From Microcaldota archaeon (GTDB taxonomy: Archaea > Micrarchaeota > Micrarchaeia > Micrarchaeales > Micrarchaeaceae), in contig JAKAWW010000001.1 in the NCBI GenBank assembly GCA_021816895.1, positions 124,001 to 188,000 of the forward strand: a DNA stretch of 64,000 nucleotides, in the 5' to 3' direction. This document shows positions 2,291-55,880 of the stretch, in pieces (position 1 is the first letter of the stretch; every line of letters begins with the position of its first letter). Below the pieces are notes generated by a model. It was not told where the DNA came from, ran no database searches, and saw nothing but the letters and a program-made list of their open reading frames with translations. The translations under genes were made by a program, and so were the position numbers.

Positions 2291-2501
2291 GTACTCGCCA
2301 TTAATAATTAGGCTAATATTTTTCCTAATATTTAAACTTTTGGTTTTGTAAAATTCCAGTATCCTTACTGCCTTGAATTGATTAAAGATTAAGCAGCTGT
2401 AGCTCTAACATAGGGTTAAAATTGTTTATGGTCAAGAGATATATGGCATTGTATTGCTACTGCGAATGCTATCTTGTCGCAAGGTTCAGTGCTCGCAATA
2501 G

Positions 2502-3083
2502 GTGTTTGGTTTGCAGATAATAGGCATAGATTTGGATGACACAATTGTCGATTATGTCAACATGTGGCTAAAAGTGTTCGAGAAGGAAACAGGGGTAAAA
2601 GCCAGACTAAGCGACATCAAAAAATGGCACATATCGGAGCTCTTCCCAAATGTGCTTGACGATAAAAAAATGATAAGGCTCATGGTAAAGACATGGAAGG
2701 AAGAAGACAAGAATATGAAGCTTGTAGATCCAGAAATACCAGCAGTGTTTAGAAGGCTGCGAAAGCGCTTCAGGCTGTACATAACAACTGCCACGCTGGC
2801 AAGCGACTCCCAGATAAAAGAATTCCTTGAAAGGAATGACATAAAATACGACAAGCTTGTTCATGTGCAGCACCATGTAGAGAAGCTGCTTGACGAAGTT
2901 GACATATACATAGATGACAGCCCAAAGGTCGCGGAAGAATTTGTCAGCCATGGCAAATACGTAGTGGTATTCGCAAGGCCCTGGAATAGTTCTATAAAGC
3001 AGAACGGCTATGTCAAAAGGGTTTCCAACTGGAAAGCTGTAGAGCGCGCAGTGCTAAGCTTTGCATCGAAGGCAGGCCGATAA
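2502..3083 (+). CDS. HAD-superfamily 5'(3')-deoxyribonucleotidase-like phosphatase
   Basis: A 193-residue protein with HAD motif I GIDLDDTI near the N-terminus (nucleophile Asp and the Asp two residues later), motif II as TTATL near residue 95, and motif IV as YIDDSP near residue 138. The helical cap between motifs I and II and the overall length fit the NT5C-like nucleotidase group, which removes phosphate from (deoxy)nucleoside monophosphates. Substrate specificity cannot be read from sequence. The start is GTG 2502 or TTG 2511; no ATG is available. It is followed by the promoter of the deoxyhypusine synthase gene, so it is probably monocistronic. Confidence 0.75.
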   Translation: MFGLQIIGIDLDDTIVDYVNMWLKVFEKETGVKARLSDIKKWHISELFPNVLDDKKMIRLMVKTWKEEDKNMKLVDPEIPAVFRRLRKRFRLYITTATLASDSQIKEFLERNDIKYDKLVHVQHHVEKLLDEVDIYIDDSPKVAEEFVSHGKYVVVFARPWNSSIKQNGYVKRVSNWKAVERAVLSFASKAGR

Positions 3084-3153
3084 AGCCGCTTGCCAGGCAT
3101 AAGCGCGCTATTGCATGCCTTGGCTTTGCGGCGCGCAGCACAATGCAATCATG

Positions 3154-3160
3154 TATAAAT
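3154..3160 (+). promoter_or_regulatory. TATA box of deoxyhypusine synthase gene
   Basis: TATAAAT lies 25-31 bases before ATG 3185. Archaeal transcription starts about 25 bases downstream of the box, so the messenger is probably leaderless. Confidence 0.6.
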
Positions 3161-3184
3161 AACTTTATTGTATAAGGCTTAATC

Positions 3185-4129
3185 ATGGACAAAAAAGATC
3201 TGCTTAAGCACCCTATAAGGGATTTGAAGCTGAAGAAGGGCATGACCGTGAGCGAGCTTGTAGGCTCTATGGGCAGCGTCGGCGGCTTTTCCGCGCAGCA
3301 TCTTGCAGACGGGATAGGCATAATGAAAACAATGCTAAGCAACGAAAAGTCTTTCAACTTCCTGTCATTCCCTGCCGACCTTGTATCTACTGGCATACGC
3401 GGCATAATAGCTAGCGCGGTGAAGTATTTCGATGCCATAATAACCACCGGCGGCACGCTAGATCACGACATAGCAAGGGCAAACGGCGGCATATACCACA
3501 AGGGCACCTTCAACGTTGACGATTCAATGCTCCACAAGCTCGGAATATACAGGGAAGGCAACGTATTCATAGAGCGCGCGCAGTACGGCATGAAGATGGA
3601 GCAGGCATTCAACCGCATAATGACTGACATCTACAATTCGAAAGATTACAAGAAGGAATACAGCGCATCTGAACTCATATACGAGTTCGGCAAGCGCATT
3701 GATGACAATGGCTCAATAGTGCGCCAGGCATATCTAAACAAGGTGCCCATATTCTGCCCAGGCATACTTGATGGCGCCTTTGGCACTGCTTTGAGCATCT
3801 TTGCCCAGGACCACGACTTCAAGCTAAACCTAATAAAGGATGAGCTTGAATTGAGCAACATAGCGTTCGACAACAAGGTTACCGGAGCCCTAATGCTTGG
3901 CGGCGGAATAAGCAAGCACCATGTCATATGGTGGAACCAGTTCAAGGATGGACTTGACTATGCAGTTTACGTCACCACGGCAACGCAGTACGACGGCAGC
4001 CTTTCCGGGGCAAGGCTCACCGAAGCGGTCTCATGGGGCAAGATAAAGGAGAAGGCGCGCTACGTCACAATAGATGGGGATGCAACAATAATACTGCCTA
4101 TTATGTTTGCAGCGCTTGACATAGTATGA
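3185..4129 (+). CDS. dys: Deoxyhypusine synthase
   Basis: Transfers the aminobutyl group of spermidine to a lysine of aIF5A, the first step of hypusine formation. The 314-residue length is normal for the family. The signature GGGISKHH carries the lysine that forms the covalent enzyme-imine intermediate (Lys244 by this start). NAD-binding and active-site stretches TTGGTLDHD and SGARLTEAVSWGK are present. A TATA box about 25 bases before the ATG suggests a leaderless transcript. Together with the Dph2 gene in this window it shows that the cell makes both archaeal/eukaryotic translation-factor modifications. Confidence 0.96.
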   Translation: MDKKDLLKHPIRDLKLKKGMTVSELVGSMGSVGGFSAQHLADGIGIMKTMLSNEKSFNFLSFPADLVSTGIRGIIASAVKYFDAIITTGGTLDHDIARANGGIYHKGTFNVDDSMLHKLGIYREGNVFIERAQYGMKMEQAFNRIMTDIYNSKDYKKEYSASELIYEFGKRIDDNGSIVRQAYLNKVPIFCPGILDGAFGTALSIFAQDHDFKLNLIKDELELSNIAFDNKVTGALMLGGGISKHHVIWWNQFKDGLDYAVYVTTATQYDGSLSGARLTEAVSWGKIKEKARYVTIDGDATIILPIMFAALDIV

Positions 4130-4179
4130 CTGTATGCACGTTTAAATGGTGACCGATCACGGCTGTTTTTAGGTATGTA

Positions 4180-4443
4180 GTGCACGGCTTCGTGCAGGGC
4201 GTGGGCTACCGGGCATACATTAAAAGGGTTGCCGATTCTTACGGCATTTGCGGCTATGCGAAAAACATGCCAGACGGCAGCGTCGAGATTGTTGCAAAGG
4301 GCGATGCAGAAAGCATAGCAAGGTTTGAATCAAGCATAAAAATAAGCATGCACAACGGCCCAGAAGTCATCGCGGTAGAAAAGAGCGAGACTGCCGAAGC
4401 CGAGGAGGGCGTTTCTGCTTTGAAAGGTTTTGAAGTGCGCTAG
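4180..4443 (+). CDS. Acylphosphatase
   Basis: Small enzyme hydrolysing acyl-phosphates, or an acylphosphatase-like fold. HGFVQGVGYR contains the phosphate-binding loop and catalytic Arg. The catalytic Asn is in YAKNMPDGSVE. The start is a puzzle. The first usable codon is GTG 4180, giving a protein that begins at the phosphate loop. The upstream in-frame codons read VFRYV, exactly what the first beta strand should be, but the frame holds no ATG, GTG or TTG before a TGA at 4150. A TTTAAA element at 4141 would place the transcript start near 4170, which supports GTG 4180 or an unusual initiator. The 3' end overlaps the convergent SPFH gene by four bases. Confidence 0.85.
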   Translation: MHGFVQGVGYRAYIKRVADSYGICGYAKNMPDGSVEIVAKGDAESIARFESSIKISMHNGPEVIAVEKSETAEAEEGVSALKGFEVR

Positions 4444-5495
4444 CTCTTCGGCTTTGACCCTTTGCCCTTTGTGCTTTGTTGCCCCTGGCCTGATGAGCTC
4501 TGCGCTCCGCCCTGCTGTTGCTGCTTGTAGTAATCCTGCAGGCCCATCACGCCGAAAGGCGTAGGTATGCTGAAGCCCTTTGCTTCTGTGGGCACGAATA
4601 CTATGAGATTCTTGCCGCTCAAGCTTATCTCGTACATCATGTTCAGCGACCTGAGCTGCATGGCGTAAAGGTCCTTCCTGTATTTTTCAGCGGCTTCAAG
4701 CATCTTGTCCGCAGCAAGCGATTCTGATTCGGCGAGTATCACCCTTGCCTGCTTCTCCCTGTCGGATGTAGCTACCCTGGCCATAGCGCTCTGAAGTTCT
4801 GGCGGTATGGTAACATCTCTTATCTCTACAGATATGGCTACAATGCCCCAGCTTTCTATGCGCTCCTGTATGAGCTTCCTTATGTCCTCGCCTATTATAT
4901 CCCTGCCAGCGAGCATAAGCGAGAGATCGTTCTTGCCTATTATGTCACGCATTGCGGTCTGCGAGGCAAGCTGCACCGATTGCATATAGTTCTGCACGTT
5001 GAGCACTGCATGCTCAGGGTTTCTGACCTGCCAGAACAGTATAGCATCAACATCAACGGGCACATTGTCCTTGGTAAGCGTTTTTTCAGCGCTGAACGGC
5101 GTGCTTATCACTCTAAGGTCAACATTGAACGGCGTGTGGTCTACTACTGGTATTATGAAATATATGCCTGGCCCTATCATGCCCTTGTATCTTCCGAACC
5201 TCAGCACTGCCATGCGGTTCCACTGGCTTACTACCCTGACGGAAAGGGAAAGCACTATTATGAGCACAACCAGGGTTAAGACCAAACCAGCAAGAATGCC
5301 TATTTCATAAATGCCAATGCCTCCTATTATGACAATTATGAGCAAGTCCGCAATAGCGCCTGCCCCGCCCGCATATTTTTTCATATTCTGGGCAGCTTCG
5401 GCCTGCTGCGCCGCAGCTACATCGTCGCGCTGTGCAGCTATTGAAACATTGTCTTGTGAGTCCTGCGCATTGTCTTCATCAGAGCTTGTCTGCAT
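4440..5495 (-). CDS. SPFH/stomatin (band 7) membrane protein
   Basis: A 351-residue stomatin-type scaffold protein. The N-terminal 40 residues are acidic and Gln/Ala-rich. A double hydrophobic segment follows (LLIIVIIGGIGIYEIGILAG and the next 25 residues), then the SPFH core (QWNRMAVLRFGRYKG, GPGIYFIIPVVD, VDVDAILFWQVRNP, EIRDVTIPPEL), a helical region, and a Gln/Gly/Ser/Lys-rich tail. Such proteins organise membrane microdomains and often control proteases. No NfeD partner is adjacent. Upstream in-frame codons exist, but the TATA box at 5525-5533 places transcription near 5500, so ATG 5495 (MQTSSDED) is chosen. Confidence 0.9.
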   Translation of the reverse strand: MQTSSDEDNAQDSQDNVSIAAQRDDVAAAQQAEAAQNMKKYAGGAGAIADLLIIVIIGGIGIYEIGILAGLVLTLVVLIIVLSLSVRVVSQWNRMAVLRFGRYKGMIGPGIYFIIPVVDHTPFNVDLRVISTPFSAEKTLTKDNVPVDVDAILFWQVRNPEHAVLNVQNYMQSVQLASQTAMRDIIGKNDLSLMLAGRDIIGEDIRKLIQERIESWGIVAISVEIRDVTIPPELQSAMARVATSDREKQARVILAESESLAADKMLEAAEKYRKDLYAMQLRSLNMMYEISLSGKNLIVFVPTEAKGFSIPTPFGVMGLQDYYKQQQQGGAQSSSGQGQQSTKGKGSKPKS

Positions 5496-5524
5496 GCAAT
5501 CACTGCTTTCATTTCTCTGACAAA

Positions 5525-5533
5525 TTATATAAA
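5525..5533 (-). promoter_or_regulatory. TATA box of SPFH gene
   Basis: TTTATATAA on the minus strand, 30-38 bases before ATG 5495. It also excludes the longer upstream start for this gene. Confidence 0.6.
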
Positions 5534-26526: not shown

Positions 26527-27861
26527 TCACACTTTTATTACAGGATGCAAATTGGGCAGGCCAATTTTTTTCAATGTAGCTTCTGGATTGTCATAGTAGT
26601 CGCGCACAAATTCGCTTATGCTCTTCATGTCGCGCATGCCTAGCCTGTTTATCCTGTCAAGCATTATCGCCCTGATGCGCTCCTCCTCCAATATGTCTGG
26701 CGGCGGCACGCCGAGCACCTTTGACAGCATGTCCCTATACGTTACACTTGGCAATATAGGAGAGCCCTTTTGGGTTTTATAATCATACTTGTATAGATCA
26801 GAAAGCAGTATCTGCGTTTCTATGCCGGATATCTCAGATATCTGCGTAACCTTCCTGCTCTGCAATCCCCCTGTGTATACCATCGATACTACAATAAGCG
26901 CATCTATAACCGGTATTATATCCATCGGCACATTCATTGGCGTGTGCTGCAGCCTGTTTATAATATCCCTGGTTGAAGATGCATGTATAGTGCCCATCGA
27001 TATCTTGCCGATGTTCATCGCCGTAATCATGTCATTGGCTTCCGCGCCCCTCACTTCGCCTATTATTATCATGTCAGGCCTCATCCTAAGCGCGTTCTTG
27101 ACAAGGTCTACCATTGGCATGTCCTCGCTTGTCTCTAGCCTCACGCAGTTTTCTTGCGTCCTGGTGTCAAGCTCATAGGTCTCTTCAATGGTGACAATCC
27201 TTGCTTCGGGCCTGAAAAACGAGAACATTGCATTGAGCAGCGTTGTCTTGCCTGCAGCAGGCATTCCTCCTATCAGGATGTTTGCCGGCCTTACCTTCAG
27301 CCCGTCAACGTAAAGCCATAGCCTTGCAGCTATACTGTAATCAATCTCTCCTGCGTTTACAATGTCCAATATGCTGAGGGGATTCCGCTTGAAATTTCTC
27401 ACCGTCACGTCATAGCCCATCGGAGATGACACGACATTTGCCCTGCTCCCATTGGGCAGGTGTATGTCAAGTATGTTGCCGTTCGAAGATTCGTTTGTAG
27501 CATAAAGCTTGAGCTTGTTGATAAAGGTTTCCAGGTCCTCTTTGCTGCCGATCTTCTTGTCAACTTTCTTGGGTCCCTCCTTTGAACTGTATTCGAATAT
27601 GTTCTCGGTGTTGTTTATCATGATGTCTTCTATGTCCTCATTATCGATGAGCTCGGCTAGGGGGCTTATGTCATACATGTCCTTGAGCATTTCATCAATT
27701 TCGTCTTCGCCGACATGCGGGTCTATGCTCTGCGCTATGTCCTTTATGATCTGCCTTCGGTGCAAAGGATCAGTGATTGTTGTAAACTTGCCTTTAGCCT
27801 TGGTAAGTATCAGATTCTCCATGTCCCTAAGTCGCTGCTCCATAAACGTTGGCATCCTCAT
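26527..27861 (-). CDS. Type II/IV secretion and pilus assembly ATPase (CpaF/VirB11-like)
   Basis: A 444-residue hexameric ATPase that powers pilus assembly or secretion. The N-terminal region is followed by LAELIDNEDIEDIMIN (typical N-terminal domain), Walker A GGMPAAGKTTL, Asp box TIEETYELDTR, Walker B MIIIGEVRGAEA and the His box MGTIHASS. The short C-terminal domain is mostly helical. No membrane platform gene (TadC/FlaJ-like) is adjacent. The class III pilins at 34768-35895 and the stalk protein at 51390 are candidate substrates. ATG 27861 is preferred over the upstream TTG. Confidence 0.93.
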   Translation of the reverse strand: MRMPTFMEQRLRDMENLILTKAKGKFTTITDPLHRRQIIKDIAQSIDPHVGEDEIDEMLKDMYDISPLAELIDNEDIEDIMINNTENIFEYSSKEGPKKVDKKIGSKEDLETFINKLKLYATNESSNGNILDIHLPNGSRANVVSSPMGYDVTVRNFKRNPLSILDIVNAGEIDYSIAARLWLYVDGLKVRPANILIGGMPAAGKTTLLNAMFSFFRPEARIVTIEETYELDTRTQENCVRLETSEDMPMVDLVKNALRMRPDMIIIGEVRGAEANDMITAMNIGKISMGTIHASSTRDIINRLQHTPMNVPMDIIPVIDALIVVSMVYTGGLQSRKVTQISEISGIETQILLSDLYKYDYKTQKGSPILPSVTYRDMLSKVLGVPPPDILEEERIRAIMLDRINRLGMRDMKSISEFVRDYYDNPEATLKKIGLPNLHPVIKV

Positions 27862-28011
27862 ACCAGCGTGCAATGCCGTGCTTTACAAACGAAGCTGGTT
27901 ATACAGATAGATGGGATAAAAATGTATATATATGTTTGCGGGAGGATGGCGCATTGTTGAGATTTTAGCATTGTTATTCAAATACTAACAATGGATTAAA
28001 AATGGCAACTT

Positions 28012-29163
28012 TTATCCAGCCTTTGGTTCTGGCAATATGGAATCGACTACGAACTGCGGGCTATACCTTACCAGTGCATCATAGCTCTCCCCTGTGCCGA
28101 AGTAAAGTATTGGTATGCCTGTAAGGTGCGATATCGACACCGCGCCTCCGCCCTTTGCGTCGCAATCAAGCTTGGTGAGTATTATGCCGTCTATCTTTAT
28201 CGTTTTTGAGAACTCCATTATCTGCTTCGCAATTGCGTTGCCAGAGATGCTCTCTCCCACGTAAAGTGTTATGTCTGGTTTTGCTACCCTCACTATCTTT
28301 TCCATCTCCTTAAGCAGGCTTTTGTTCGTGTCTTGCCTGCCTGCGCTGTCTATGAGCACTATATCAATGCCATGCGCCTTGGCGTAAGCTATGGCGTCAA
28401 AGGCTATGCTTGCAGGGTCAGCTCCGTATGTGCTCTTTATGACAGGAACGCCTATCTTATTGGCGTGGAATTCCGTCTGCTCTATTGCCGCGGCCCTGAA
28501 GGTGTCGCTTGCAGCCATCACACATGCAATTCCACTGCTTTTGAACATGTAAGCAAGCTTCGCTATTGTGGTCGTCTTGCCCGTGCCGTTGGGCCCAAGG
28601 AAAAGGATCTTCACCGGTTTCATGCCTTGTGAAACGCGTTCCTTTGAAAATTGAAGCAGGTCGATGCCCTTCGTCTCACTCAAGGTCTTCTCCAGCGCCT
28701 CGCGCACTACGCCAAGCATTTCTTCCTCTATGCCGTTTGAGCTGAACTTCCTGCCGCTTACTTCATTTTTCAGCATTTGCTCAAAATATGCGGCAGTATC
28801 ATATGATACATCGGATTCAAGCATCGATTTCCCTATTGCGTCGACAAAATTGTCTACCTCTTTTTCGTTTAAGGTTACAGAGCCAATAAACCTGCTCTTT
28901 ATCTTTGTGGCAATCCCTAGCTCTACAACATGCTGCGCATCCTTTGCATTTTTCGCTGCTTCAACTTTCTTGCCATTCATTGTCTCTTTTTTTGGCTCTT
29001 CGCGTTGTAGCGCGCTCTCTTCTTTCTTGCTTTCGGGGCTATCCGCAGCGGCGACTTCCTCCTGCTTGCTGCCGCTTCCTTCAAGCTCCTCTTCCTCCTT
29101 GTGTGCAAAGCCTTTTATCGCATTGGAAAGCTTTTTTCTCAGCGCATCAAACAGACCAATCAC
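28012..29163 (-). CDS. ftsY: Signal recognition particle receptor FtsY
   Basis: SRP receptor GTPase targeting ribosomes to the membrane. The N-terminal GLFDALRKKLSNAIKGF helix is a membrane-binding helix, followed by an acidic, Glu/Lys-rich linker. The NG domain has GPNGTGKTTTIAKLA (G1), DTFRAAAIEQ, DSAGRQDTNK (G3), TKLDCDAKGG (G4) and the closing FGTGESYDAL. The start is GTG 29163, eight bases after the prefoldin stop; longer upstream frames overlap prefoldin and are rejected. The linked SRP RNA is at about 60 kb. Confidence 0.95.
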   Translation of the reverse strand: MIGLFDALRKKLSNAIKGFAHKEEEELEGSGSKQEEVAAADSPESKKEESALQREEPKKETMNGKKVEAAKNAKDAQHVVELGIATKIKSRFIGSVTLNEKEVDNFVDAIGKSMLESDVSYDTAAYFEQMLKNEVSGRKFSSNGIEEEMLGVVREALEKTLSETKGIDLLQFSKERVSQGMKPVKILFLGPNGTGKTTTIAKLAYMFKSSGIACVMAASDTFRAAAIEQTEFHANKIGVPVIKSTYGADPASIAFDAIAYAKAHGIDIVLIDSAGRQDTNKSLLKEMEKIVRVAKPDITLYVGESISGNAIAKQIMEFSKTIKIDGIILTKLDCDAKGGGAVSISHLTGIPILYFGTGESYDALVRYSPQFVVDSILPEPKAG

Positions 29164-29170
29164 CTGCAGT

Positions 29171-29584
29171 TCATCTGCTGCCTGCAGCAGCATCGAGCCT
29201 ATGTATAACCTCAAGAAGCGAGCTTTCTACTTTCTTCCTGTTGCTTATTGCGGCTGTAAGCTCCGCGGATTTCTTCTCTATCAACCGCGCAATGTATTCT
29301 TTTGCGTAATCGGCGCTCATCTCTTCAAGGTATCCGCCGCCTATGCCAACTGTGAAAGTTTTTGCATCCATGGCCTTGCTGCGCACATAGAAGCCGGAGC
29401 CGACATGCGTGAAAAGCTCCCTGTTTTCAAGCAGCGCGCTCTCTTCAATGGCTTTCTGCACGGCACTGAGCTCTCTAAGCTCGTTGGAATTAGATGTTAT
29501 TGCTTCGGACAGTGACCTGTACTGCTGCTCGTAAAGCTGCTGCATGTACATGAGCTCTTCCGCGCCCTGATTGTTTGCTGCCAT
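29171..29584 (-). CDS. pfdA: Prefoldin subunit alpha
   Basis: A 137-residue co-chaperone subunit handing nascent chains to the thermosome. Two long coiled-coil helices (ELMYMQQLYEQQYRSL and the C-terminal EYIARLIEKKSAEL) flank a beta-hairpin region, HVGSGFYVRSKA and TFTVGIGGGYLEE, the family signature. It sits upstream of ftsY, as in many archaea. A TATA box 35-45 bases upstream supports ATG 29584. Confidence 0.9.
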   Translation of the reverse strand: MAANNQGAEELMYMQQLYEQQYRSLSEAITSNSNELRELSAVQKAIEESALLENRELFTHVGSGFYVRSKAMDAKTFTVGIGGGYLEEMSADYAKEYIARLIEKKSAELTAAISNRKKVESSLLEVIHRLDAAAGSR

Positions 29585-48273: not shown

Positions 48274-50112
48274 TTACCTGCTTTTCCTTACGTGCCTTGC
48301 TCTGCGCTCCCCTTGCATTTTACGCTTATTTAATTGAAGCATAACAATTATAATGATTACTGAAAAGAGCGCTATCTCTGCAACCTCGATAACTGCTAGC
48401 GCATAGACCTCTGCATCCAGGCTTTCAACTTGTGCTTCAATCTCGTTTACGCCGTTCTCTACCTGTGGGCTAGTTGCTTGCGCAGCTGGTTCAAGGTTTC
48501 TCGCTATCAAAGAAGTGTCATTGCTCAGCTGTGAGGCAAGCTCCGCCACAGAGTATGCTTGCGATGCGTAATTTCTCGCAAGCGTCGAGTTTGTTGTCGC
48601 GCCTGCTTCATATGCGTAGAATCTTGCCTCGTTTGCATACTGCGTGGCCCATACACCGAATGTTGCATTTGCCGAGAGCGTGGTGGCATTGCCTATAAGC
48701 GCCTGCGTTGGTATGCTGCCTATGGGTGCATATAGCGCGTATGCGTAATCCGCGTCAAGTATTGCAAGTGCATAGTTGCCTGAATCGTACGCTTTGACTG
48801 CTGTTGAGAGGTAGAGCCCCTGGTAATTTGAAGCTCTCTCAATTCTCGAAGCTGCAACCGCTTTGAGGCTTTGGCTGGGAGAAACTGCTGTGCCTCCCAT
48901 TGTTGCGGATGCGTTATATAGGAATGATGCAGCATTGCACCATCCCTGTGCCTCTCCCCCCTCGTAAAGTGAATCCAGCACGCCATCGGTGTCTATTGCG
49001 GTAAGGTTATAAAGTCCAATTGTGCTGCCTATCGTGAAATTCGCCCATGCCTGCCTGAGCTCGCCGCCAAGCACATATTCATAGTTTGCACTTGTAAGCT
49101 GCGGCGCAGAAAGGGCGGCACACGAGTAGTTGATGCCTTGGAGCGTGCTCAAGCCGCTCGCTATGTTGGTAGTGTGCTGGCTAAAGTAGAATGCGTTTAT
49201 ATAATCTAGAAATGCAAAATCCGCGCCTGTATAAAGGTAGCCTTTTGCCGCTATCGCCCTGCTCTGGTTGAGCACAGCAAGAAGCTGCCCGCTAACGTTT
49301 GCGAAGCTGCTGCTTTTAGCAAGCTCGTTGATCTGGCTTGACGTGATGTTAAATGTGAATAGCGTGAGATCAACGAACGTCGAGTCGTTGCAGCCATTGC
49401 TGCATGCGAGCGGTGCCGATGGCAACGTGCTAACACCATAGTGGGTGTAGAAATTGTAGTATGTCTCATGCGCGTACGGATTCATGCTGGCATTGAATGC
49501 GTATTGCGCAGCCTCGCTTATGTTGGAAACCTGAACAAGCGGCAAGCCGAACTCGTTTTGCACCAGGTAATACAGCTCGTTTTCGCTGCTCGTGCCAGGC
49601 ACTGCCGGCACCATCACGAAGTCCATGCCGCCTAGCTTTGCGGCGCTGACCTTGTCATAGACGCCGCCTATCTCGCCTATGGAGCCATTGCTGCTTATCG
49701 TGCCTGTCATGGTGAAATCCTGGCGTAGCTGCCTATGTGATAATGCTGATATCGCGAGCATCGTCATGGCCGCTCCTGCGCTCGGGCCTGACACGCTTGT
49801 GGTGTCGTTCATTATGTAATATGTAAAGTTGTAATCATTGAAATCTACCCCCAAATAGCTAGATGCATACGTGGCTGCCTCTTTTGCCGAGCCAACCGTT
49901 GAGTTGCCCACGCTTTCTGGGCCCACTATTGCCACGTTCCCGTTCCCGTAGGTAACATTGAGCATTATTGTTGTAAGTGCACCCTTGTTGGTCTGCAATA
50001 TCACAGCTGGTGCATGAATGGTTGCACTGCCAACAAGCGCTGGGCTCGAATAGGCATAGCCTGCCATGAAGATTGCCACAAGCGCGGCAAGCAAGAAGAA
50101 CCTATAGTTCAT
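48274..50112 (-). CDS. Secreted Lon-like serine protease with C-terminal anchor
   Basis: A 612-residue protein. Signal peptide at 1-25 (MNYRFFLLAALVAIFMAG). Residues about 30-200 form a Lon-type protease domain without an AAA module: the catalytic Ser is in VSGPSAGAAMT and the Lys in GGVYDKVSAAKLGG. The remaining ~350 residues are Ala/Ser/Asn-rich and helical, with many N-x-S/T sites and a few cysteines. A C-terminal span (VAEIALFSVIIIIVMLQL) and basic tail RRARHVRK close it. It should act outside the membrane. Related archaeal Lon-like proteins are known, but substrates are not. The start is ATG 50112, matched to a TATA box at 50146-50154. Confidence 0.9.
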   Translation of the reverse strand: MNYRFFLLAALVAIFMAGYAYSSPALVGSATIHAPAVILQTNKGALTTIMLNVTYGNGNVAIVGPESVGNSTVGSAKEAATYASSYLGVDFNDYNFTYYIMNDTTSVSGPSAGAAMTMLAISALSHRQLRQDFTMTGTISSNGSIGEIGGVYDKVSAAKLGGMDFVMVPAVPGTSSENELYYLVQNEFGLPLVQVSNISEAAQYAFNASMNPYAHETYYNFYTHYGVSTLPSAPLACSNGCNDSTFVDLTLFTFNITSSQINELAKSSSFANVSGQLLAVLNQSRAIAAKGYLYTGADFAFLDYINAFYFSQHTTNIASGLSTLQGINYSCAALSAPQLTSANYEYVLGGELRQAWANFTIGSTIGLYNLTAIDTDGVLDSLYEGGEAQGWCNAASFLYNASATMGGTAVSPSQSLKAVAASRIERASNYQGLYLSTAVKAYDSGNYALAILDADYAYALYAPIGSIPTQALIGNATTLSANATFGVWATQYANEARFYAYEAGATTNSTLARNYASQAYSVAELASQLSNDTSLIARNLEPAAQATSPQVENGVNEIEAQVESLDAEVYALAVIEVAEIALFSVIIIIVMLQLNKRKMQGERRARHVRKSR

Positions 50113-50145
50113 AAAACCACTATAAGAGTAGAAATCTGCGCTCAA

Positions 50146-50249: not shown

Positions 50250-51227
50250 TCACTGCTTCATGTTCTCTAATTTTGTAGATTTGGACCATAGGTAATCAAA
50301 TCTGCTCCTTGCTTCGCTGTAGTTTACGCCTATTATGTGTTCGCTCTTCTTGTTTATTATGTTCAGCGGCGGTATCTTGTATGCTGAACTGTCATCAAGT
50401 ATGAGCCTTTCGTGCTGCTCCGCAATCAGCTCTTCGGGCACCACCCTTAGCTCAAAGCCTACTCCTTTCTTCTTCATCTCATTGACAAAATCAGCATAGT
50501 CTGCTGAAAATTCCCTGCCTAGCCTGTCCTTTTTGGCAACAACCATGAAGCTCTTGTAGCTGTCTTCCCTGCCCTGTATAAGCCTTGAGAGGTTCTCCAA
50601 AGCTTTTGCGTCGAAATGCATGTCAAGTATGCGTATGTTGCCGCCAAGCCTCGACATTAGCCTCCCGGAAAGCACAAGCATGTTCGTATATGGCGTATCC
50701 GGGTTTATCGCTATGGGCCGCGCATGCGCAGTCCTCTCCTCTTTCCTGGTATGCACAGTAAGGTACGCGCTTGGCGCAAGAGTTATTGTCACTCCGATAT
50801 AGAGCAGCAGCGAGTATGTGGTAAGGTAATGCCCTCCGAATGTGGCTTCAACTATTATAGCAACCACCATGATTACTATGGAAGAGAAGGCAACAGCCGC
50901 CCAGCCCATCCTAGAATGAGAACGGGAAAAAAGAAGCAGGACGCTCATAGCAAGCGCTATGAGCCCAAAAGGCAGCAATATGTACGTCATATACAGCCCT
51001 AATGCAGTCGCTGAATACTGCGCTGCAAGGTTCGTTATACCTTCCTGCGCGATTATCGTTGAATTGAGATGCGCCACCAAGAGCAGCGCTGAATAGAAGC
51101 CGCTTGAATATGACAGCTTTACTATATAGTAAAACGTGTAGAGGAGCATGAGCAGCGATCCTGCTGTCGCAAGAATCGGCTCAATCGCATCATGGCCGGA
51201 ACGCATACGTTTGAATAGCAATTTCAA
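50250..51227 (-). CDS. Four-span membrane protein with phospholipase D-like cytoplasmic domain
   Basis: A 325-residue protein with four predicted spans in the first 160 residues, then a cytoplasmic domain. That domain resembles a phospholipase D half: beta strands NIRILDMHF and YKSFMVVAKK, and HERLILDD, close to HxKx4D with Arg in place of Lys. It ends in PPLNIINKKSEHIIG and DYLWSKS, a pattern seen in PLD-like sensor domains of archaeal regulators. It carries one degenerate motif, so catalysis is doubtful and a sensory or lipid-binding role is possible. Start ATG 51227, upstream region AT-rich. Divergent from the stalk protein gene. Confidence 0.65.
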   Translation of the reverse strand: MKLLFKRMRSGHDAIEPILATAGSLLMLLYTFYYIVKLSYSSGFYSALLLVAHLNSTIIAQEGITNLAAQYSATALGLYMTYILLPFGLIALAMSVLLLFSRSHSRMGWAAVAFSSIVIMVVAIIVEATFGGHYLTTYSLLLYIGVTITLAPSAYLTVHTRKEERTAHARPIAINPDTPYTNMLVLSGRLMSRLGGNIRILDMHFDAKALENLSRLIQGREDSYKSFMVVAKKDRLGREFSADYADFVNEMKKKGVGFELRVVPEELIAEQHERLILDDSSAYKIPPLNIINKKSEHIIGVNYSEARSRFDYLWSKSTKLENMKQ

Positions 51228-51389: not shown

Positions 51390-54215
51390 ATGCCTCAGAA
51401 CTTCAAAACGCGGCAGGAGAAGCATGCACAGTCCGCATTAGAGTACCTTGTCACGTATGGCTGGGCAATACTGCTTATCTCAATAATAATAGCGCTTCTT
51501 TACCTTTATGTGGTGGTGCCGAAGGTGGTTGTGCCTGCTTCCTGTAATTTCGTGAGTGGCGCATACTGCAATGACCTTATACTGGGCACCAATGTCACTA
51601 CCCACGCGACAAAGCTTGCCGTGTTCCTTACAAACACGCAGCCGTATCCAATACAGGATCCGCAGCTCTATGTGAAGATCAGCAATACATCATCTTCTGC
51701 AAGTCAATGTTCCCCAAAATTTGTGCTTCCTGGCGGCTCAATAATCTGTGAGGTTCAAGTTCCTGTGACTACCTCTCTAGGCGCGTTTGTAGCCGGCTCT
51801 ATATACCTAAATGCGACGTATTGTGGACTTGCGCCTAATTACACCACAACGCATAATTGTGCCGCTGCCCCAAGGCAAACATATACTGGCAGCTTCAATG
51901 CACATGCCGCGCCCCTTGTGTCTACTACATCTCACATATCCCTTACTGCGTCAAATGCCACAAACCCTGCCAACAACGCCAAAGATGTGCTTACTGCCAC
52001 TGTAGACATGCTCGGCTACCCGTTGAAGGGTGCGAGCGTGAACTTTACTGAAAACAATACTGCATATACTCTCCAGCCCAACCTCACCACAACAAACACA
52101 AACGGACAGGCTCTCTCATACATATGGGGTACTACTGTAGGCAGGGTTCTTGTTTCAGCGGACTATGCTGGCCTGCCTCCTAGCAGTGTCATAATAAACT
52201 TTTCAGCTCCAGCAACAGTGACTTTCAAGATAATAAACTTTCCATATTGTTCATCTTATTCATCCGCAATAGGAAAAATAGATGGTATTGCATATACGTG
52301 CTCACAGCTTTCCACTCAAAAATTTGAGTGGGGCCTGAACAGTGTGCACTCCTACAATTTTACCTATATGGCGGATGTTGCTACCGATACAAGGAGCATA
52401 TTTCAAAATATTGTAATATCTGGCATAACCTATACAAGCCCAAACGGCACTATTACTGTAACAGGCAATACCACAATTCCAGTTACCTACTATACGCAAT
52501 ATTACTTCACAGAGCTCGCCAATCCAAGCACTGGTGGTGCAGTTACACCAGGAACAGGATGGTACAACATTTCAACCCTGAGCATAGCGGAAACGCCAAG
52601 TACCGGCTGGTTCTTCAATAATTGGGCGTGCACAGGAACAGGCTGTTATGCGGGAACATCCCCTACTGCAGCAATAACCCTAAACAACCCGATAAGTGAA
52701 ACTGCAAACTTTTACTCTACTTCATCTACCTCGACATCTACAACTTCTACAAGCACATCAACTACAATAACAACCACTACAACCTCGACTACATCAACAA
52801 CCTCTACAAGCACTTCCACGACATCAACCAGCACCTCAACCACATCGACAACCACAAGCACCACAACCTCGACAACCAGCACAACAACCTCAACAACATC
52901 AACTTCAACCTCAACAACCTCCACCACAACATCTACAACCAGCACCACAACCTCAACAACCAGCACAACAACCTCAACAACATCGACTTCAACCTCGACA
53001 ACCTCCACCAGCACATCAACAACGATCTACATTCCTCCCCCAACCTCGACAACTACAAGTACCTCAACCACATCGACAACCACAAGCACCACAACCTCGA
53101 CAACCACAAGCACCACAACCTCGACAACTACATCTACAACCACGTCTACAACAACAGTATTGTCAACCTGTTCATGTGGTCAAGACAACTATGTATGTGA
53201 TAGTACAGCCAAAATAGTATGCAGCGGGTGCCCATCAAGCTGCCCTGCAGTGGCTTCTACACCATCATGCACACATATAAGCGGGGGTAGCTATTATTAC
53301 TGTGCTCCAACCACGACTTCATCAACAACAACCAGCACAACAACAAGCACAACAACAAGCACGACAACAACAACCTCTACTACTACTGCCTATTACTCAT
53401 GCGCTACTTGCACATACCCAACTACTGGCTATTCATGCCCGTCATCCTGCCCGTATCAGATATCAAGTTATGCTTGCGTTGGAGGTGATATTATATGTGC
53501 ATCCGCTTGCGCATGTAACACATGCATGAATGGTGTTGGTGTCTCTTGTATTTGCCCATCGTCATGCTCAATTGCCGGATCTTGTGGTAGTAGCGGTGAA
53601 GAGGAATGCAGGGCTTCTTCAACTACAACTTCCACCGCAACTACAACATCAACCGCAACTACAACATCAACCGCAACTACAACATCAACCGCAACTACAA
53701 CATCAACCGCAACTACAACATCAACCGCAACTACAACTTCCACCAAAACTACAACATCAACTTCAACCTCTAAAAAAACCACCACGTCAACGAGCAGCAT
53801 AGCTTATTCCGATGGATCCGTTTATGGAAGCATGATAATAATGATGGCCAATGGCACAGGAATACCCGCAAGCAATGTTAAAGTTGGCGACATAATAATG
53901 TCGTATGACTTTGCCACAGGAAAATTGGTACCATCTATAATAACAGACGTTCAAGCGTTGAAATCAAACAACACGTACATATTTAACAACAATCTACTCG
54001 TTGATTCAAATGAAGTAATGTATGTAAACGGGAAGTGGCAGAGGGCCTATAATACAAAGGTGGGAGACAAGCTGTTCATGCCAGAATACGGAAACGTGAC
54101 AATCTATTCTATTAAAATATACAACACTAGTGGCGGCATTGTATACGACTTCCTTGGAAGTCCTATAGATAATTATATAGCTAACGGATATGTTATCGAT
54201 ACAATAGAAAGTTGA
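51390..54215 (+). CDS. Giant pilin-type stalk protein with degenerate Hint domain
   Basis: A 941-residue surface protein. Residues 1-40 form a class III prepilin leader: KHAQSALEYLVTYG with predicted cleavage before Gln, then a hydrophobic helix. About 45-165 is a pilin-like head with Cys pairs and about 170-270 an Ig-like repeat. About 370-430 is an InlB/bacterial-repeat-like domain (GGAVTPGTGWYN, AETPSTGWFFNNWAC). About 441-590 is an almost pure Thr/Ser stalk, followed by two Cys-rich modules separated by further Thr stretches and a TTTSTA repeat. The last 135 residues form a Hint/intein-like fold without catalytic residues. Such a protein could be a pilus-tip or cell-surface adhesin; this is inference. 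The leader links it to the pilins near 35 kb. Confidence 0.88.
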   Translation: MPQNFKTRQEKHAQSALEYLVTYGWAILLISIIIALLYLYVVVPKVVVPASCNFVSGAYCNDLILGTNVTTHATKLAVFLTNTQPYPIQDPQLYVKISNTSSSASQCSPKFVLPGGSIICEVQVPVTTSLGAFVAGSIYLNATYCGLAPNYTTTHNCAAAPRQTYTGSFNAHAAPLVSTTSHISLTASNATNPANNAKDVLTATVDMLGYPLKGASVNFTENNTAYTLQPNLTTTNTNGQALSYIWGTTVGRVLVSADYAGLPPSSVIINFSAPATVTFKIINFPYCSSYSSAIGKIDGIAYTCSQLSTQKFEWGLNSVHSYNFTYMADVATDTRSIFQNIVISGITYTSPNGTITVTGNTTIPVTYYTQYYFTELANPSTGGAVTPGTGWYNISTLSIAETPSTGWFFNNWACTGTGCYAGTSPTAAITLNNPISETANFYSTSSTSTSTTSTSTSTTITTTTTSTTSTTSTSTSTTSTSTSTTSTTTSTTTSTTSTTTSTTSTSTSTTSTTTSTTSTTTSTTSTTTSTTSTSTSTTSTSTSTTIYIPPPTSTTTSTSTTSTTTSTTTSTTTSTTTSTTTSTTTSTTTVLSTCSCGQDNYVCDSTAKIVCSGCPSSCPAVASTPSCTHISGGSYYYCAPTTTSSTTTSTTTSTTTSTTTTTSTTTAYYSCATCTYPTTGYSCPSSCPYQISSYACVGGDIICASACACNTCMNGVGVSCICPSSCSIAGSCGSSGEEECRASSTTTSTATTTSTATTTSTATTTSTATTTSTATTTSTATTTSTKTTTSTSTSKKTTTSTSSIAYSDGSVYGSMIIMMANGTGIPASNVKVGDIIMSYDFATGKLVPSIITDVQALKSNNTYIFNNNLLVDSNEVMYVNGKWQRAYNTKVGDKLFMPEYGNVTIYSIKIYNTSGGIVYDFLGSPIDNYIANGYVIDTIES
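52711..53157 (+). repeat. Thr/Ser-coding low-complexity tract
   Basis: About 150 codons almost entirely ACN and TCN, encoding alternating TSTTS-like units, broken once by IYIPPP near 53022. Synonymous codons vary, so the protein repeat is conserved more strongly than the DNA repeat. The tract is expected to be an extended, probably O-glycosylated stalk. Confidence 0.9.
53625..53760 (+). repeat. 18-base tandem repeat inside the stalk gene
   Basis: At least six near-perfect copies of ACAACATCAACCGCAACT, each encoding TTSTAT (read as TTTSTA units). The 18-base period is in frame, so copy-number change lengthens or shortens the stalk without breaking the gene. Confidence 0.9.
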
Positions 54216-54246
54216 ATTGGAAAAATAAGATTTGAATGTGGTTATT

Positions 54247-55206
54247 ATGGCTGAAGATGTGAATGCTAACATGCCTGATAACGGCAACGCGGTACCAGGA
54301 GCGCCCATACTAGAACAAGCAGGCAATCCAGCAGCAGAACCACAGGCTGCTGCCATGCAGCAGCCGCAAGCTCCACAAGCTGACCAGAAACCTCTGCAAG
54401 CAATGAACAGACCTAGCATGTCCCATCTGGTAAGCATAGTTTTGGTTTTAATATTAGTCGCGGTGGTGTTCTTTGCTGCGCGCTACGTGAGTCAGCCGCA
54501 TTCAACCACTTCAACATATACAACCATACCCACCACAACCACAGCCTATATAAACATAAGTAACATCAGACCCAACGCCCCAAAGCTTCTTGCAGGAATC
54601 CCTAATGCAAGCCAGTACGTCGAATTTATGAATAACACAAACCTCAACTTCGTATTGGGCGCATACAACATCACAGCAAAAGAAGCAGATTTTGCGACAT
54701 ACGGACTCAATTTTACCAACGAATTAATAACATCTCCAATTGAATTCGCACCTAACTACACATTAGCGATACCAAGCAAATACGCAGACTACAAATATCC
54801 TATCATAAGTTCTATTTTCGCATATAACCTATCTTCTCCTACACAGGCGGCAGAATTCTATAATTACGAATTGAACTATGTACTGTTTGGTAGCAACATG
54901 ACATTTCCAATATACAATAAGACCGTCTATTATGCAAGCAACTTCTCCACTGCAACAAACAGTGGCGTGCCTGGTTACACGTATGCGACAAAGACCAGTG
55001 TTTACAATCTAAACTCAAGCATACCTGGCATGACCATTACTGTTGCTATTATAAAACCGATGTATCAGACAACAGAATGGTTTCATGTGCTCGTGCTGTA
55101 TAAGAACTACTTCATAGTATTCGGCTATTTTGGGGTATTGAATGAATTCAATCAGAGTAGTGCAATAAATATCTCTGAGCGCTACATAAATGCAACACTA
55201 GTGTAG
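54247..55206 (+). CDS. Membrane-anchored surface protein, N-in C-out
   Basis: A 319-residue protein. The N-terminal 60 residues are cytoplasmic, Gln/Ala/Pro-rich. A single span (LVSIVLVLILVAVVFFAA) follows, then a short Thr-rich linker (TTSTYTTIPTTTTAY) and an external domain rich in N-x-S/T sites and Tyr. No enzymatic motif. It starts 31 bases after the stalk gene, so it is probably in the same unit. ATG 54247 is chosen over TTG 54232. The external domain is weakly reminiscent of that in the next gene. Confidence 0.75.
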   Translation: MAEDVNANMPDNGNAVPGAPILEQAGNPAAEPQAAAMQQPQAPQADQKPLQAMNRPSMSHLVSIVLVLILVAVVFFAARYVSQPHSTTSTYTTIPTTTTAYINISNIRPNAPKLLAGIPNASQYVEFMNNTNLNFVLGAYNITAKEADFATYGLNFTNELITSPIEFAPNYTLAIPSKYADYKYPIISSIFAYNLSSPTQAAEFYNYELNYVLFGSNMTFPIYNKTVYYASNFSTATNSGVPGYTYATKTSVYNLNSSIPGMTITVAIIKPMYQTTEWFHVLVLYKNYFIVFGYFGVLNEFNQSSAINISERYINATLV

Positions 55207-55214
55207 GTACTTTA

Positions 55215-55880
55215 ATGAGGCGCATTTATCCAATAAGTTTGGCTTTAGTGCTGGCATTGGCAATTTTTATGGCGCTGCTGTTTGCGCATCAAATAGCCCA
55301 CCTGGGGCAGCACAACAACCTTTACCTTAATATCAGTGCCAACTATATAAGTTCAGTGCTTCCAGGTGAAAATATCTCTATCATATCGAACAAATCTGTT
55401 GTATTTAGCGGCACAGCAGAAAGGGAGGGCTACATCGCTACAGCGGATGAAGCCTTTTCTGGCAAGGTAAAAGATAGCAATGCAAGCATAATAATTTTCA
55501 TCATAATGCAAGATAACAACGATACCGTATCAAATTCAACACTGTATAATGAATTGACACTTGCCAGCAGCAATGTGTCGCATGCAGGCAGTTACTTTAA
55601 ACTGCTTAAAATTACAAATTACAGTATAGGCAGTTTGAACATAAACATACCAATATACACGATTTTCGACAGAGGCGTATTTAATACATCCAAGGTAGAA
55701 AATTCACAAAATGCCGGCATACCTCTTCTGCCCTATTATCAATATGTCAGCATGTTTACCTATAAAAATTATTACGGCAGTGTAGTTGTTGACGCGTATA
55801 CAAACGCTTCTTTATACAGCAATGCGTCAATTGTACTTGCTAAATACATGCTCAATTATACCGCCACAAAATTTGGCTAG
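55215..55880 (+). CDS. Exported or N-anchored surface protein
   Basis: A 221-residue protein with an N-terminal hydrophobic segment (YPISLALVLALAIFMALLF) and an external domain carrying many N-x-S/T sequons. Its C-terminal half (YQYVSMFTYKNYYGSVVVDAY ending in a SNASIVLAKYMLNYT helix) looks like the equivalent region of the preceding protein (WFHVLVLYKNYFIVFG, SAINISERYINAT), suggesting distant paralogy. It starts eight bases after that gene's stop. No function can be assigned. Confidence 0.7.
   Translation: MRRIYPISLALVLALAIFMALLFAHQIAHLGQHNNLYLNISANYISSVLPGENISIISNKSVVFSGTAEREGYIATADEAFSGKVKDSNASIIIFIIMQDNNDTVSNSTLYNELTLASSNVSHAGSYFKLLKITNYSIGSLNINIPIYTIFDRGVFNTSKVENSQNAGIPLLPYYQYVSMFTYKNYYGSVVVDAYTNASLYSNASIVLAKYMLNYTATKFG

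Follow-up and report, generated by a model that had tools for sequence, protein, structure and literature searches.

A putative modular pilin with a degenerate Hint-fold end and two linked membrane-anchored partner genes in Micrarchaeota

Over 1,200 modular pilins are on record in bacteria (PMC8179133), and for two of them, PilB and PilC of Streptococcus sanguinis, which carry a vWA module and an Ig module plus a ConA-like lectin, respectively, a tip position has been proposed (PMC8179133, PMC9934059). In archaea, EppA-type substrates display a glutamine at +1 and a glutamate at +5, and the subunits of the Sulfolobus bindosome are at least four times the size of a pilin (PMC4371748). DUF2341 proteins encoded in archaeal type IV pilus loci have been proposed to act as tip adhesins (PMC4858521), and in Mia14, whose two type IV pilus systems are accompanied by a single FlaK-like peptidase, some of the LamG proteins are linked to pilus loci (PMC5498576). 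Filaments of the Micrarchaeum harzensis-host pair have been seen by cryo-tomography; the authors lean towards a host-made filament, and in the part of their account drawn upon here no components are assigned to these filaments (PMC8975820).

The gene considered here lies in a stretch of 64,000 nucleotides (the window) from a Micrarchaeota archaeon whose genome consists of one contig of 928,770 bases.

The reading frame and its pilin part

Positions 51390-54215 of the window were found by ORF analysis to form a single uninterrupted ATG frame of 941 codons (Table 1). A preliminary description of this DNA had named, within one open frame, a class III leader, a pilin-like head, an InlB-like repeat, a Thr/Ser stalk of about 150 residues, two Cys-rich modules and a Hint-like end, and each of these segments is present: the head consists of a beta domain of pilin type and a Big_1 Ig domain, and the stalk and Cys-rich modules are evident from composition and from the positions of the cysteines. 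The same description had proposed a search for this domain order in related genomes, and the succession of leader, head, InlB-type repeat, stalk and Hint does recur there; the best homologous loci belong to Candidatus Micrarchaeota, with two labelled Marsarchaeota.

Table 1. Features of the 941-residue protein, its neighbours and other leader-bearing proteins of the genome (window coordinates)
Feature	Coordinates	Strand	Basis
Putative modular pilin, whole gene, 941 aa	51390..54215	+	Open frame; homologues keep same order among order-level relatives
Class III leader peptide, residues 1-13, predicted cut A13/Q14	51390..51428	+	Q14, A16, E18 invariant, 19 homologues
Hydrophobic N-terminal helix of pilin, residues 14-45	51429..51524	+	AlphaFold2 helix 8-42
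Pilin beta-domain, residues 46-178, six conserved Cys (52, 60, 107, 120, 145, 157)	51525..51923	+	Invariant Cys; leaderless match to small free-standing pilins
Ig-like domain Big_1, residues 183-271	51936..52202	+	Pfam PF02369, E 6e-9, above cut-off; 17/19 homologues
Beta-rich domain without family, residues 275-370	52212..52499	+	AlphaFold2 strands, pLDDT about 90-96
InlB-type B-repeat, residues 371-442	52500..52715	+	Pfam PF18998 in 11/19 homologues
Thr/Ser stalk, about residues 443-592	52716..53165	+	Composition, mixed synonymous codons, tandem repeats
Cys-rich module 1, about residues 594-638	53169..53303	+	Cys positions
Cys-rich module 2, about residues 671-740	53400..53609	+	Cys positions
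T/S/A linker, (STATTT)n type, about residues 743-802	53616..53795	+	18-bp tandem repeat 53620-53761
Degenerate Hint domain, residues 809-937	53814..54200	+	Profile, fold, residue counts
dn1, TM-anchored ectodomain, short Thr stretch, likely ATG 54247	54232..55206	+	Homologues directly behind Hint-tipped genes
dn2, 221 aa, TM-anchored ectodomain	55215..55880	+	Downstream position; no credible Pfam family
Short pilin, leader of same type (GQSAMEYLMTYGWAIL), 176 aa	34768..35298	-	Leader motif
Short pilin, leader of same type, 165 aa	35398..35895	-	Leader motif
Leader-bearing protein, same genome, 591 aa			Kelch repeats
Leader-bearing protein, same genome, 549 aa			DUF2341-like tail
Leader-bearing proteins, same genome, 328, 344, 491 aa (open-frame lengths)			LamG
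Leader-bearing protein, same genome, 719 aa			Own head, T/S stalk, DUF2341-like end unscored by Pfam (by eye)

It had also been allowed that homologues might prove to be split into separate genes, or that a frame error had joined unrelated ones. All 26 of the homologous Hint ORFs with an intact 5' end have a class III-like leader in frame with the Hint (the leader of L117 was called by eye and lies outside the script pattern), and leader, stalk and Hint are kept together in that frame in every one of them. The sole split copy of a Hint-tipped gene occurs in strain A_DKE (L092, about 2291-5530; G154:C1:452-455 kb), where one in-frame TGA stands at a Trp position of the homologues and the downstream TM-anchored partner genes are retained; this TGA may reflect a pseudogene, decay or a sequencing error. 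While that interrupted homologue would speak for a frame error or a chance joining of unrelated genes in the 941-residue frame, the 26 intact homologues that share a single frame leave such an explanation a negligible probability. Because all of these carry the leader in the frame of the Hint, the joined segments are judged not to be an artefact, and the frame is taken to be real, a frame error being excluded by the homologues. Elsewhere in the window, 48274-50145 (-) encodes a membrane-anchored protein with a Lon-type (S16) protease domain, which, together with a 325-aa neighbour (50250-51227), stands in the same divergent arrangement beside a pilin-headed gene in L128.

The leader of the 941-residue protein is KHAQSALEYLVTYGWAIL; the window holds three copies of its motif, one in this gene and one in each of two short pilins, and none appeared in 20 shuffles. 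Invariant across 19 homologues are Gln14 (+1), Ala16, Glu18 (+5), Tyr23, Trp25 and six cysteines, and the class III assignment made earlier stands. AlphaFold2, supplied with 19 sequences, returned a helix spanning residues 8-42 followed by beta domains (mean pLDDT 84.5). With leader and helix removed, a profile of the globular part matched free-standing pilins of Micrarchaeota (185-195 aa, E 3e-25 to 7e-11), together with one from a Woesearchaeon (171 aa, E 1.6e-6), and gave no match in a reversed database, which argues that residues 1-178 represent a complete pilin, to which the remainder of the protein has been added.

None of the curated pilin or class III models in Pfam and NCBIfam matched the 941-residue protein, and no solved pilin was matched by a profile search of PDB sequences; since curated models are supporting tools and not the definition of the family, the missing match lowers, and does not exclude, membership among the pilins. 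A Foldseek search with the head model likewise returned no pilin, Ig-type adhesins such as intimin being among the best matches, probably because the model comprises several domains. A search of viral contigs found no relative of the pilin head. By sequence criteria the protein qualifies as a modular pilin, in that a pilin module is joined to Big_1, InlB-type and Hint modules that are not pilus-specific, and it would be expected to work like one.

Middle modules and the degenerate Hint-fold end

The Big_1 region matched intimin both by profile and by fold, and the InlB-like repeat named previously corresponds to Pfam Flg_new_2, which scores weakly here (E 0.024) and clearly in relatives (11/19, best 6e-12). 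Threonine and serine together account for 143 of the 155 residues between positions 443 and 597; the Pfam Mucin model scores 17.6 bits on this tract, below its cut-off, and the composition fits a mucin-like glycoprotein. Because synonymous codons are mixed along the stalk, we infer that selection has acted on the protein, rather than that the tract arose by mere slippage of a short DNA repeat. For the first Cys-rich module one weak homologue was found (L064/L094, E 6e-5); tick complement inhibitors were considered as homologues of the Cys-rich region and rejected, their PDB matches being too weak (E about 0.1). The T/S linker that precedes the Hint is the third such linker in the protein, and is, together with the catalytic loss described below and two conserved downstream genes, an addition to the preliminary description.

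A profile built from 19 tips matched Hint and BIL chains in the PDB (best 2e-12; 2lwy at 1e-8), and a model of the tip (five sequences, pLDDT 76, with only the best of five models good) matched BIL and intein structures with TM scores up to 0.77. The Hint-like end was in this way upheld in fold and profile; its catalytic residues, on the other hand, are degenerate. S810, D872, E875 and D937 occupy the positions of C1, of the T and H of TxxH, and of the C-terminal residue, and in an alignment to 6y75 the D and E of the tip fall on its T and H. Across the homologous domains, position 1 is serine in 42 of 46 and cysteine in the other 4; in block B, where TxxH has become DxxE, the threonine is replaced by aspartate in 44/50 and the histidine by glutamate in 44/50, the block-B histidine itself occurring in 0 of 50 Hint domains. 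The terminal His-Asn is replaced by Ile-Asp. Tandem pairs of Hints are found in many family members, and in complete members the last Hint is usually followed by 1-4 residues, and by at most 8.

Because its catalytic residues are replaced, the tip is predicted to be unable to splice by the usual route, and it is probably a non-splicing binding domain in which the fold has been retained for another task. That the domain might have kept its catalysis through a changed site (Ser1, Asp, Glu and a C-terminal Asp), serving in self-cutting, release of the stalk or covalent linkage to a partner, appears improbable: Ser1 does serve in some inteins, and the replacement residues are conserved (42/46, 44/50 and 44/50) beyond the drift expected of a dead site, but TxxH and the terminal His-Asn have both been lost, and the 1-4 residues that follow the Hint in most members leave nothing to splice.

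A Hint with intact catalytic residues (TGEH, terminal HN) lies directly after a 492-aa Gly/Cys-rich ORF at L229 22-1905 (G300), in the same class and outside the order. It may be related to the ancestor from which the degenerate tips arose; because an intact relative exists in the class outside the order, loss would be the likely direction of change.

Exchange of heads and tips, and the downstream gene pair

The same genome encodes five or more further proteins with such a leader, about 310-720 aa in length; together with the Sulfolobus bindosome and the bacterial modular pilins, they overturn the earlier supposition that large class III proteins are exceptional. Among the fetched loci, distinct leader ORFs number 79 of at least 300 aa and 109 that are shorter. 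The Hint of the window is 68-70% identical to its closest Hint relatives, in G156 and G160. Between the heads of these two and the window head BLAST found no match; they are instead about 45% identical to the 719-aa protein listed in Table 1, and the window head in turn shows 54% identity to a protein of G089 whose tail is rich in Gly. Between G146 and G160 the middle module is 89% identical, the heads 47% and the Hints about 41%, and within G146 two different heads bear Hint segments, each truncated by a contig end, that share 99% identity across 102 aa. Such comparisons place the 941-residue protein in a modular Micrarchaeota family whose heads and tips recombine. Two G146 contigs end in the same Hint sequence (L091 4654-5038 and L117 8256-8640, 96% DNA identity), which may be due to gene conversion or to an assembly break at a repeat.

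The modular gene is followed after about 31 bases (measured to the likely ATG) by dn1, and dn1 after 8 bases by dn2, each of which encodes one TM segment plus an ectodomain. Pfam provides no family for either ectodomain; a MatE match for dn2 and single-member Pfam matches for dn1 were rejected as TM-segment noise. The two products display only weak mutual similarity (prob 40, E 0.0003).

A dn1 homologue lies directly downstream in 14 of 22 unique Hint loci, as against 0 of 41 non-Hint leader proteins of at least 300 aa, the split A_DKE gene being one further dn1-linked Hint locus outside this count (raw counts of 16/8/1/41, which include duplicate loci and the A_DKE fragment, gave a Fisher p of 1e-8). 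Among the 8/22 Hint loci in which dn1 was undetected as a homologue, L126, L094 and L119 have two TM-anchored ORFs downstream. Across 164 genomes, incomplete ones included, 17 contain both a strong dn1 match and a Hint, 11 a Hint only, 2 dn1 only and 134 neither (p 6e-14, uncorrected for relatedness); dn1 matches near E 1e-7 were left uncounted as probable TM-plus-Thr matches. Each of the two genomes with dn1 only encodes a leader-stalk-Cys-rich protein directly ahead of the partner or close to it; one of them (G011) harbors at L241 5389-10787 a tandem array in which leader-stalk-Cys-rich proteins alternate with TM-anchored ectodomain proteins, accompanied by (NGAS)n-type repeats. Hint and dn1 distances are correlated (r 0.68, Mantel p 0.0005, n 14), and the correlation persists with head distance controlled in the eight loci where head distance is measurable. 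Shared descent of the cassette accounts for part of both the co-occurrence and the correlation.

In Pfam, the Hint matches PT-HINT best, and this, along with the two small genes downstream, would fit a contact-dependent polymorphic toxin stalk with a pretoxin Hint and with dn1 and dn2 as immunity genes. That explanation was rejected as very improbable, since no complete member has a toxin domain after the Hint, and dn1 and dn2 resemble anchored ectodomains and no immunity family.

Proposed function and comparison with known systems

Two loci of the genome combine a VirB11-type ATPase with platform (TadC) genes, which in one of them are followed by class III minor-pilin-like genes; the ATPases and the T2SSF platform score over cut-off, and the two loci parallel the pair of pilus systems described for Mia14 (PMC5498576). 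The sole candidate prepilin peptidase is a weak A24 match (E 1.8e-4, below the Pfam cut-off) with two aspartates in what we take to be the expected kind of motif (FDLFNKRNVP, GAAD). A third T2SSE match, at 26527-27873 (-) of the window, was set aside as probably no pilus ATPase; it adjoins an SRP54-type GTPase gene (28012-29214).

On balance, we favor an archaeal modular (minor) pilin acting as an extended fibre on the cell surface, the tip of which can be exchanged. A prepilin peptidase would cleave before Gln14, and the N-terminal helix and pilin domain would then be seated in a filament of the type IV pilus kind or at the base of such a filament in the membrane; a probably glycosylated succession of Ig, InlB-type and Thr/Ser parts would keep the C-terminal Hint-fold domain off the cell, where the non-splicing Hint would serve as a binding domain with one or both of the dn1 and dn2 products as its likely ligand or cis partner. 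Of the earlier picture, in which the stalk projects the head, what survives is a pilin-type leader on a large surface protein of modular build whose stalk projects, and the projecting end would instead be the C-terminal Hint-fold module; insertion into a pilus, at its tip or base, and a sensory or adhesive role, all proposed there, stay predictions. The three-gene set, recurrent in relatives, is probably a surface-contact device.

A serious rival, which we hold to be possible rather than probable, is that the leader provides a membrane anchor only, and that the protein, cleaved or not, stands singly on the cell and forms a membrane complex together with the dn1 and dn2 products, in the manner of the Sulfolobus bindosome and outside any pilus. 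The dn1 and dn2 products each have a TM anchor and an ectodomain of their own, the 941-residue gene is remote from the ATPase and TadC loci, and Sulfolobus places class III leaders on large non-pilin proteins (PMC4371748); against this, homology to free-standing pilins extends beyond the leader across the globular part of the N-terminal 178 residues, and the bindosome subunits resemble substrate-binding proteins instead (PMC4371748).

Within the modular-pilin reading, we offer as a tentative and rather doubtful extension that archaeal pilins have adopted the splicing-dead Hint as an exchangeable tip for recognition, which a matching pair of membrane proteins encoded next to it would read, and that the tip-plus-partner cassette recombines between heads and so changes the partner or host that is gripped. 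The wider question is how ultra-small DPANN archaea hold their hosts, and for this the pilin-headed family provides named candidate genes in a cultivated relative, Ca. Micrarchaeum harzensis A_DKE, where a pilin-headed protein is encoded at about 802-805 kb. The family would carry the principle of modular pilins over to archaea and points to a role for the Hint fold other than splicing. We know of no earlier description of a tip of the Hint-fold type; a search of the open-access literature found none of such a pilin tip or of the linked partner pair, and both appear to be undescribed.

Like PilB and PilC of S. sanguinis, the 941-residue protein combines a class III leader and a pilin module with unrelated functional modules that are widely exchanged; unlike them, it has an archaeal head, a long Thr/Ser stalk, a Hint-fold tip (its tip position being predicted) and two linked TM-anchored partner genes. 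The archaeal DUF2341 proteins and the LamG proteins of Mia14 are likewise large, located at the surface and tied to pili, and tails of the LamG or DUF2341-like kind are also present on leader-bearing proteins of this genome, whereas the gene itself has a Hint-fold end and sits outside the pilus loci. The bindosome subunits of Sulfolobus are similarly large proteins with a class III leader, but are substrate-binding proteins and lack a pilin head, stalk or Hint. Finally, the tip resembles BIL and other Hint domains (PDB 2lwy, 6y75 and 6tmm) in fold (TM about 0.77) and in sequence profile, and differs from them in that Cys1, TxxH and His-Asn are replaced and that the domain forms the C-terminal end of its protein, with no extein.
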